This document shows positions 31,403 through 34,160 of a stretch of 35,602 nt of DNA, piece after piece. Below the pieces are notes generated by a model. That model did not search any database and was not told the DNA's origin. It saw nothing but the letters and a program-made list of their open reading frames with translations. Location of the stretch: positions 1-35,602 of the forward strand of contig JALVES010000141.1 of NCBI GenBank assembly GCA_027030635.1, given 5' to 3'. The translations under genes were made by a program, and so were the position numbers. Origin of the DNA: Saprospiraceae bacterium (GTDB taxonomy: Bacteria > Bacteroidota > Bacteroidia > Chitinophagales > Saprospiraceae). The stretch's first letter is position 1. Each line of letters begins with the position of its first letter.

Positions 31403-31999
31403 TTATTCCAAAAGATAGCAAATGTTTTTCAAGTCCTCCACCAAAGACCTTGCAGAGATGGTAGCTCCGCTGATGGCATCGGGTTGTTGGCCGTAGGTGA
31501 GTTCGCAGCCGCGCAGGCCTTCCATTTGGCGCAGCCAGCTTTTCGAGCTGATCTGATAGCCGTAATCGGATTCCATTTCGAGCATGAGGATGCGTTTGAT
31601 GCGGCGGTCCGGATCGAGAAAGACGGCATAGGTGAACTCTTCGTAGGCCACACCCTTATCTGTACCTCCTTCGAAGCAGCCGCCCAGGTGGCAGGCTGCA
31701 GATTTGCGTATGAGGAGCCAGCCGAGCAGTGTGTCTGCATGGCTTAGCCGGTAGAGGCGGTCGGGCGTACCGATCAAGGTGTTGGGCGGGGGTGTTTGTT
31801 TTCCTGCGGGCGGCGCAGTTGCCGGCATTTGCCCTCCCCGGAGTGAGGCAGGCCGAAAGGCGGGATGCTCTATTTCTTCCCATTTGACCTCCAGCCCGGG
31901 CCACAACTTGCGGATGACTCGTTTGAGTTGTCGCTCGTGAGGCCAAACAGCAGCTATGGTGAGCAGGGCGGATAGCGTGAGGAGGAGGATTTTTTTCAT
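31403..31999 (-). CDS. Exported FMN-binding domain protein
   Basis: N-terminal hydrophobic signal/anchor; 'ESDYGYQISSKSWLRQMEGLRGCELTYGQQPDAISGATISARSLVEDL' with SGATxS flavinylation-type motif; 'CHLGGC'. Confidence 0.85.
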   Translation of the reverse strand: MKKILLLTLSALLTIAAVWPHERQLKRVIRKLWPGLEVKWEEIEHPAFRPASLRGGQMPATAPPAGKQTPPPNTLIGTPDRLYRLSHADTLLGWLLIRKSAACHLGGCFEGGTDKGVAYEEFTYAVFLDPDRRIKRILMLEMESDYGYQISSKSWLRQMEGLRGCELTYGQQPDAISGATISARSLVEDLKNICYLLE

Positions 32000-32058: not shown

Positions 32059-33237
32059 TTAGAACCACACGCCTACGCCTGCGTTGAGCATTTGATTCCA
32101 CTGGCTGTCTAAGGCCGATTGTTGCCAACGGTAGTCGAGCTTCAGGGCCATGCCCGTATTGAATTTCCAGGCTGCACCGACGAACCAGGCGTGCCGCTTG
32201 TAGGCGGGATTGGGGTTGTGGCTGTCGGTCTTGCTGTTGGTGTCGTAAAATTCGTAGCGCACAAAAGGTACCAGGGCCCTTCCTTTGGCGGGGTCGCGGA
32301 AAAACTCTGCAGCCGCTTCGAGGTAATAGCCTTGCATGAGCGAGCCCAGCTCGGCGCCGGTGAAGGCATTGTAGGCTTCTGTGTGACTTAGGCGGGCATA
32401 GATGTACTGTGCGCGCAAATTCCAACGCCCTTTTTTGAATCGCACTGCCGTGCCCAGCATCAAAGTGCCGATGACAGAACTGTCGGCCCGTGCCACAGCT
32501 TTGGCATCCCTGCGGTCCAGTCCGCTGAAGAGGTCTGATTGCGTCTTGCCTGCGTAGAGCGAGGCGCTCCATTCCAGGCCCGGCAGGCCGTAGTAGCTAA
32601 GCTTGGCCGAGAGTGCCGGATTGTGTACAAAAGATTCAATGGCTTTTTGACGCCCCTTGCGCAGGCCGGAAGAGGCTTTCAGCAGCCCCTGCCCGTCTTT
32701 GTAAGAGGCAAAGCCATTGAGTACATAAATCTGGTAATTCAGGGAGGCCACCGGCAGACGTCCCGTGAATCCCGCGCCCATTTCCCGCCAGGTGGATGGC
32801 ACAAGATAGGTGTCCAACAGCGGGCGTTCGACTCCGGAATAGGTGGGGGGCTCGTGGTATTCGTTGATGATGCCCATGGGCACGAGCAGTACCCCTGCCT
32901 TGAAGCGCAGGGCTTCGTGAAATTTCCAGGACATCCAGGCTTGTTCGATGAAAATTTCGGAACCGTGCTCGACTTCAATTTCCGACATAAACCGCAGGCG
33001 TGCATTGTAGCGATAAGCCAGGGTTGTAACCAGACGATGGGCATCTAAAGTGCCGGTTTCATAGGTACTTTTCCCGACAGGCTGATTGTAGTCGAGCTGA
33101 GCATAAGCGCCTATAGCCAGGCCCGAAGCGGGAAAAGGTGAATTGGGAATGAATGTGGAGTCAGTTGTGGTTTGGGCTGTCATTCCGGCTGCTACTCCCA
33201 GCCAGCAGGCAAAAAATGCTATCCATTTTGTTCTCAT
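32059..33237 (-). CDS. Outer-membrane porin-like beta-barrel protein
   Basis: Signal peptide MRTKWIAFFACWLGVAAGMTAQ; 'MSEIEVEHGSEIFIEQAWMSWKFHEALRFKAGVLLVPMGIINEYHEPPTYSGVERPLLDTYLVPSTWREMGAGFTGRL'; terminal aromatic 'VGVWF'. Confidence 0.85.
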   Translation of the reverse strand: MRTKWIAFFACWLGVAAGMTAQTTTDSTFIPNSPFPASGLAIGAYAQLDYNQPVGKSTYETGTLDAHRLVTTLAYRYNARLRFMSEIEVEHGSEIFIEQAWMSWKFHEALRFKAGVLLVPMGIINEYHEPPTYSGVERPLLDTYLVPSTWREMGAGFTGRLPVASLNYQIYVLNGFASYKDGQGLLKASSGLRKGRQKAIESFVHNPALSAKLSYYGLPGLEWSASLYAGKTQSDLFSGLDRRDAKAVARADSSVIGTLMLGTAVRFKKGRWNLRAQYIYARLSHTEAYNAFTGAELGSLMQGYYLEAAAEFFRDPAKGRALVPFVRYEFYDTNSKTDSHNPNPAYKRHAWFVGAAWKFNTGMALKLDYRWQQSALDSQWNQMLNAGVGVWF

Positions 33238-33299: not shown

Positions 33300-33307
33300 C
33301 AAAAGTA
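33300..33307 (-). promoter_or_regulatory. Candidate -7 element TACTTTTG of the porin/FMN-binding operon
   Basis: Plus strand caaaagta; matches TAnnTTTG on the minus strand. Confidence 0.55.
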
Positions 33308-33315
33308 GGGATTTG

Positions 33316-33338
33316 TTTTTATTTAGACTAAATAAAAA
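33316..33338. promoter_or_regulatory. Perfect 23-bp palindrome TTTTTATTTAG-A-CTAAATAAAAA, candidate operator
   Basis: 11-bp arms, 1-nt centre, immediately upstream of the candidate -7 element. Confidence 0.75.
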
Positions 33339-33351
33339 TAGCAATCGAAAA

Positions 33352-33378
33352 AAAATGGGGAGCTTTGCTCCCCATTTT
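33352..33378. terminator. Terminator hairpin downstream of the 33406-33987 gene
   Basis: AAAATGGGGAGC-TTT-GCTCCCCATTTT perfect 12-bp stem with A/T flanks, U-tract-like on the minus strand. Confidence 0.85.
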
Positions 33379-33405: not shown

Positions 33406-33987
33406 TCAGAGAGTTACTTTGACTCCGGCCTGAAGGATGGAGATGCCCCAGCCGGCTTCGCCATAGAGGCTGATGCGGTTGTTGACGTACCAGGTAGCGC
33501 CGACAAAGGCGGTTACGAGGAGTTTGTCTTCGGGTTGGCCGTACTTGTAGGGCTTGGTTTGTGTGGGCTCGTCGGTCTTGGGCAGTTCGGCTACGGTACC
33601 ATCAATGTTGAGTTGGGTAACCGTGGAGCGGTACAGGCCCAGCATGCTGCCGCCATAGACGTCCACGCGTTCGAAGCGGGTGGTGTGCAGAGCAGCTTTG
33701 AGGCCAAACATGCTGCTGCTGTTGCGATAGCGCACTTGCGTCTCATCTGCCAGGGTTTGCAACCCGGAGGTAGCCACAGAATAGCCTGCATAGCCGCTGA
33801 GCTCCAACATGCCTTTGAAGCGATATCCGGCAGCTACGGATACGGGCCATACGTTTTGCGTGGCCTGATCTTTCAGGTAAGTGGGAAGTACGCCGGCAGA
33901 GAGCGAGAGCGTTAGTCCGGCCCGCTCAGTCTGTGCAAAGAGGGGAAAAGACAGTACAAAAGCAAAGAAAAAAACAAAAGTTCTCAT
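33406..33987 (-). CDS. Small outer-membrane beta-barrel protein
   Basis: Signal peptide MRTFVFFFAFVLSFPLFAQ; alternating strand pattern through 'ISLYGEAGWGISILQAGVKVTL'. Confidence 0.75.
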   Translation of the reverse strand: MRTFVFFFAFVLSFPLFAQTERAGLTLSLSAGVLPTYLKDQATQNVWPVSVAAGYRFKGMLELSGYAGYSVATSGLQTLADETQVRYRNSSSMFGLKAALHTTRFERVDVYGGSMLGLYRSTVTQLNIDGTVAELPKTDEPTQTKPYKYGQPEDKLLVTAFVGATWYVNNRISLYGEAGWGISILQAGVKVTL

Positions 33988-34141: not shown

Positions 34142-34160
34142 AACCAAATATAATTTGGTT
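34142..34160. promoter_or_regulatory. Perfect inverted repeat AACCAAAT-ATA-ATTTGGTT
   Basis: 8-bp arms, 3-nt centre in the intergenic region upstream of the 33987 gene. Confidence 0.6.

Follow-up and report, generated by a model that had tools for sequence, protein, structure and literature searches.

The window, which is the whole stretch of 35,602 nucleotides analysed here, comes from a Saprospiraceae draft genome (the host genome, G000). It contains a two-gene operon on the minus strand, in which an outer-membrane porin of 392 aa with a signal peptide (32059..33237) is followed by an exported FMN-binding protein of 198 aa (31403..31999). The structural model of the porin (pLDDT 74) is a beta-barrel, which resembles 16-stranded general porins and OprP (TM 0.5-0.6). 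The FMN-binding protein possesses CxxxGC (C103, C108) and SGATxS (S177-T180) motifs, both of which are invariant among its orthologues. Its model (pLDDT 70) has an RnfG-like fold: RnfG chains were the best fold matches with modest E-values (0.002-0.03), and Pfam FMN_bind matched the sequence with an E-value of 0.0023, a match that falls short of the cut-off of that family. A PDB sequence search with profiles of the porin and the FMN-binding protein gave no match. The SGATxS motif is as expected for flavinylation by ApbE, and the protein is predicted to be flavinylated.

Upstream of the porin gene, a perfect palindrome, TTTTTATTTAG-A-CTAAATAAAAA, is present at positions 33316-33338 (TTTTTATTTAGACTAAATAAAAA). 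It has 11-nt arms and a central A at 33327 (an 11-1-11 dyad) and is not extendable (33315 is G and 33339 is T). The element TACTTTTG, a Bacteroidota-type -7 element (TAnnTTTG type), lies on the minus strand at 33300-33307, and the gap between it and the edge of the palindrome is 8 nt. The centre of the palindrome is 23.5 nt upstream of the centre of the -7 element. Therefore, the palindrome covers the -33 region. The first-pass annotation had described this 23-bp dyad and its place over the -33 region, 8 nt from the -7 element, in front of genes for a porin and an exported FMN-binding protein with a cysteine pair; its coordinates and letters were exact, the promoter arrangement was confirmed by position, and the gene assignments hold up.

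The upstream gene encodes an outer-membrane beta-barrel protein of 193 aa and is a separate transcription unit (33406-33987, minus strand). Its intrinsic terminator, AAAATGGGGAGC-AAA-GCTCCCCATTTT followed by a T run, is at 33352-33378 on the minus strand. Because the terminator separates the upstream gene from the palindrome, the palindrome belongs to the promoter of the porin-flavoprotein operon. A second dyad, AACCAAAT-ATA-ATTTGGTT, which is unrelated to the iron box, was observed at 34142-34160; the gene of the neighbouring outer-membrane protein begins about 155 nt downstream of it.

A first-order Markov model of the window predicts only 0.005 perfect 11-1-11 dyads in the whole window, and such a dyad appeared in the 168-nt intergenic region in 2 of 10,000 resamplings (2e-4 expected). 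The palindrome is contained in a 27-bp box, TATTTTTATTTAGTCTAAATAAAAACA (33314..33340, minus strand), which matches TATTTnTATTTAGwCTAAATAnAAATA with one mismatch in the flank. When the window was scored with a 27-bp weight matrix from which the porin operons had been excluded, the palindrome gave 38.9 bits and the next best site in the 35.6 kb gave 3.7 bits. At the core of the box is the hexamer pair ATTTAG-A-CTAAAT (33321..33333), hereafter the N1 form. Read on the minus strand, the hexamers over the -33 region are ATTTTT-ATTTAG-T-CTAAAT-AAAAAC, which is the odd-centred 6-6-1-6 / 6-1-6 layout of a Fur box.

Two relatives from the genus were compared with the host, namely G001 (JALSKB010000110.1) and G002 (WGBN01000335.1), which are both Saprospiraceae records. 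The motif TATTTAGNCTAAATA is present in exactly one copy per genome in all three genomes, always before the porin-flavoprotein operon; its arms are fixed and only the central base of the core varies (A, T and C). The -7 element is also kept, as TACTTTTG in G002 and as TATCTTTG in G001. The upstream region of G002, which the contig end truncates, was inspected by eye, outside the matrix scores; its site has an identical core and one change in the outer arm. In G001, the porin gene (G001:C110:7737-8893; L008/L027/L050) is split into two frames with stops, by a frameshift or an assembly error, and the operator is intact.

The pair of porin and FMN-binding genes was found in six further Saprospiraceae genera, and in all of them an N1 form or an N7 form (the same hexamers seven bases apart) is located 6-14 nt before a -7 box. 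ATTTAG-N1-CTAAAT-like sites were found in G019 and G036, ATTTGG-N7-CTAAAT-like sites in G005 and G096, an exact ATTTAG-N7-CTAAAT in G105, and both forms in G012. Thus, whereas absence from orthologous promoters would have spoken against the first-pass annotation, the operator is present upstream of 9/9 orthologous operons examined, from seven genera. The distance from box centre to -7 centre is 18.5-27.5 nt in seven other orthologues (the -7 box of G036 is imperfect). The weight matrix, from whose training the porin operons had been left out, gave 15-39 bits in the eight full-length orthologous upstream regions, and no match of at least 15 bits was found in a further 204 kb of sequence from relatives.

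We then considered which other genes are preceded by the N1 core. Among 149 relatives, the exact 15-mer occurs 14 times: three occurrences are the porin operons and 11 are outside the genus. The latter precede feoAB, sufB, a gene for an NFU-type Fe-S protein, sdhA and three TonB receptor genes; the remaining sites precede dedA, mutL and the genes of a LuxR-type regulator and a membrane protein. By mechanical ORF calling, 13/14 sites are upstream of genes, and this becomes 14/14 when feoA is taken to start at MLSISDL. In contrast, 12/18 examined sites of the reversed-pattern control are inside ORFs, and one alone precedes an imelysin-like gene. The genome-wide frequency of the reversed N1 control equals that of the motif itself.

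When 84,980 genomes were scanned for the core followed by a -7 box, 85 stretches were obtained, mainly from Bacteroidota. TonB Plug proteins are encoded by 12/45 of the downstream genes as compared with 2/45 random neighbours. For sufB, the numbers are 9 and 1 among neighbours, although these nine loci share about 97% identity, stem from closely related genomes and cannot be counted as independent. Genes for imelysin, a haem-monooxygenase-like protein, a PepSY protein and CbiX were also found behind these boxes. The flanks, which were outside the query, show the symmetric six-base repeat of the 27-bp consensus given above (65 deduplicated sites). A tblastn search of regulator genes at the motif loci found no fur or dtxR gene adjoining the sites. 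Two loci from Flavobacteriaceae (L091, L112) possess genes for short proteins (about 118 aa) that contain several cysteines directly behind the box, a candidate new iron-regulated family; one DUF6686 match was obtained among the 45 downstream genes, which concerns such short cysteine proteins.

The first-pass annotation had also suggested a whole-genome scan for the dyad. With the exact core TTTAGNCTAAA, the scan gave no signal (2 host sites as compared with 7 for the reversed control), and TATTTAGNCTAAATA with up to two mismatches was not above the control in the genus genomes save at the porin sites. A signal was obtained only when the N7 variant and the relatives were included. ATTTAG-N7-CTAAAT with at most one mismatch occurs 27 times in the genus genomes, as compared with 11 times for the reversed control. 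In each of the three genomes, matching N7 sites were found before iscS (which iscU follows), a cytochrome/alternative-complex-III operon, coxG/xdhC, the ferredoxin-oxidoreductase gene korA and a [NiFe]-hydrogenase, and G001 has a further site before a TonB receptor gene; these gene names were assigned by reading the protein sequences. Because the N1 core stands before TonB receptor genes, sufB and feoAB, and the N7 sites of the genus stand before iscS and the other genes above, the sites behave as an iron operator. Thus, the identification of the palindrome as a conserved iron-responsive operator is well supported.

The positions of the N7 boxes differ according to the target. The iscS box is 26 nt downstream of the -7 element in three species (L224, L230, L237) and is probably a roadblock repressor site for Fe-S assembly, and the box of the G001 TonB receptor gene sits on its -7 element. 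At the cytochrome/alternative-complex-III operon (L223, L231, L238), coxG/xdhC (L222, L235, L239) and the hydrogenase (L228, L241), the boxes are 48-58 nt upstream of the -7 element with a spacing constant between species. This position at iron-using enzymes suggests activation, not repression.

As the protein bound, Fur is the best candidate. In Riemerella anatipestifer, the Fur box ATTTAGAATTATTCTAAAT is bound by purified Fur in EMSA (PMC5609570; for rhuB, PMC10986502), and feoAB is Fur-regulated (PMC10434265). In the first of these studies, the abstract cites the classical E. coli consensus, and the ATTTAG form appears in the results and the table (PMC5609570). In our literature search, Riemerella alone gave Bacteroidota Fur boxes with the ATTTAG sequence, and a search on the exact palindrome gave no relevant paper. 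The R. anatipestifer box and the window site have in common the hexamers ATTTAG/CTAAAT, an odd centre, the position in the promoter and iron-uptake targets. The N7 operators of the orthologous operons match the EMSA box: its N7 layout is identical in G105 and similar in G005 and G096, and is found at the other targets of the genus. In contrast, the site in the window is an N1 variant with the flanking hexamers ATTTTT/AAAAAC, needs two mismatches to be read as N7 (ATTTTT-N7-CTAAAT), and precedes genes for a porin and a flavoprotein, whereas the R. anatipestifer Fur box precedes a TonB receptor gene; the role of Fur here is read from sequence. The classical E. coli Fur box, GATAATGATAATCATTATC, likewise has a six-base repeat and an inverted copy about one base (6-6-1-6 / overlapping 7-1-7), but its hexamer is GATAAT instead of ATTTAG. 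The host encodes one canonical Fur (G000:C146:7154-7513), which contains the elements HDHLICLDCG and HSLTLYGHC. The nearest PDB entry to the host Fur is 4ETS, which we take to be Fur from Campylobacter jejuni. Against Fur, no box at up to two mismatches was found upstream of the 12 Plug-containing receptor genes identified in the host genome, and the host feoB is in the dtxR locus, under another operator.

This last point leads to the regulator named in the first-pass annotation, which had proposed a metal-responsive operator of the DtxR/MntR family (Fe/Mn). The metal-responsive part stands, as an iron operator, with the site at 9/9 orthologous operons and before iron genes in other Bacteroidota. 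The DtxR/MntR part is not supported. It is unlikely that an iron or manganese repressor of the DtxR/IdeR/MntR family binds the operator, although the idea has some sequence likeness behind it. The 19-bp consensus box of IdeR is TTAGGTTAGSCTAACCTAA. It shares with the window site the single-base centre and the central TTAGNCTAA, and 12/18 arm positions of TTTATTTAG-A-CTAAATAAA agree with it; the outer bases differ (TTTATTTAG in the window and TTAGGTTAG in the IdeR box). Furthermore, the host encodes DtxR and a DtxR-FeoA fusion before feoB (C55), and the half-site TTTAG is common to the operator and the dyad before the dtxR genes of the family. However, the dtxR genes carry other dyads. In other genera, the dtxR dyad is TATTTTTAGrTTArTCTAAAAATA (TTTTTAG-N6-CTAAAAA), so that TTTAG-N6-CTAAA is even-centred with TTTTTAG arms, whereas the porin sites are odd-centred N1/N7 forms with ATTTAG arms, like the tested Fur box. 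In the genus of the window (G000, G002), the dyad is AGTAAAC-N4-GTTTACT: the operon of dtxR, the dtxR/feoA fusion and feoB possesses TAGTAAAC-N4-GTTTACTA at G000:C55:509-528 (L003/L242), conserved in G002 (L243), which is apparently the DtxR operator of this genus. No dtxR upstream region contained an N1 or N7 site at zero or one mismatch.

It is somewhat less probable still that another Fe-S or redox regulator, such as the Rrf2-family protein of the host, binds the operator. One rrf2 gene is present in the host (G000:C433, L272), and such a regulator would account for the iscS, sufB, hydrogenase and korA targets: many of the target genes encode Fe-S or haem enzymes, and at some of them the box occupies the activator-like position 48-58 nt upstream of the -7 element. 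However, the dyad upstream of the host rrf2, AGTTGTATGAGATACAACT (read by eye; AGTTGTAT-GAG-ATACAACT), is unlike the iron box, and in Riemerella a box shaped like the iron box is bound by Fur. The rrf2 dyad adjoins that gene's own TATCTTTG box, and autoregulation is possible there.

It is very improbable that the palindrome lacks a protein partner, as an AT-rich dyad that arose by chance or as a structural element (a transcript hairpin or terminator), for although it is AT-rich and adjoins a terminator, the chance expectation is low, it is conserved across genera when its surroundings are not, and it recurs before iron genes. In particular, we rejected the reading as a terminator or RNA hairpin, since the G+C-rich terminator is an element of its own and the palindrome is upstream of the -7 box and of the predicted transcription start.

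The site was therefore assigned to Fur, not to DtxR/MntR, because the N7 form matches the EMSA Fur box, the host has a single Fur, and the dtxR and rrf2 genes have different operators; the elimination of the other regulators together with the Riemerella precedent makes Fur the best candidate. From these comparisons we infer both Fur as the bound protein and repression as the sign. We propose, with a probability of about 0.7, that the palindrome is a Fur-box-type operator through which Fe(II)-Fur, placed over the -33 region, would repress the porin/FMN-binding operon in iron plenty. In this mechanism, host Fur loaded with Fe(II) would bind the hexamer array over the -33 region and exclude RNA polymerase, and the operon would be off; iron shortage would release Fur, and the operon would be on. 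Exclusion of RNA polymerase would be expected because the boxes of the porin operons overlie the -33 region, with their centres 18.5-27.5 nt upstream of the -7 element. The iscS box and the G001 TonB box would also fit repression. Both kinds of box position would be consistent with a regulator which, in iron plenty, represses uptake and Fe-S assembly but promotes iron-using enzymes.

The porin and the flavoprotein may serve iron acquisition or iron sparing. Flavinylated proteins have been linked to iron assimilation, and their PepSY clusters to Fur repression (PMC8238504). The Fur-repressed PepSY iron-reduction clusters and the window have in common an extracytosolic flavoprotein, covalently flavinylated there and predicted to be so here, linked to iron assimilation and Fur; in contrast, the window has a non-TonB porin and a small RnfG-like FMN-binding protein with CxxxGC. 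Because of the RnfG-like fold, the CxxxGC and SGAT motifs and the ties of flavinylated proteins to iron, a redox role of the flavoprotein in iron acquisition, through ferric reduction or iron entry, is plausible from sequence and model, and we hypothesize that the operon may carry out surface metal reduction. More tentatively, the operon may be an undescribed iron-controlled redox module of the outer membrane and periplasm. The porin would admit iron complexes or small reductants, the CxxxGC of the flavinylated RnfG-like protein would pass electrons to ferric iron, Fur would repress the module via the compact N1 box, and Fe-S and haem enzymes would be controlled from upstream through the same hexamer pair.

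Thus, an uncharacterised porin-flavoprotein pair is tied to iron by conserved regulation, not by guesswork. The consensus, in its 27-bp form or as ATTTAG-N7-CTAAAT, can be used for reading the iron regulons of Bacteroidota. Flavinylated proteins are known in iron assimilation, where the published survey contains no porin type (PMC8238504), and the pair is a concrete candidate for a new iron acquisition or reduction system of Saprospiraceae.
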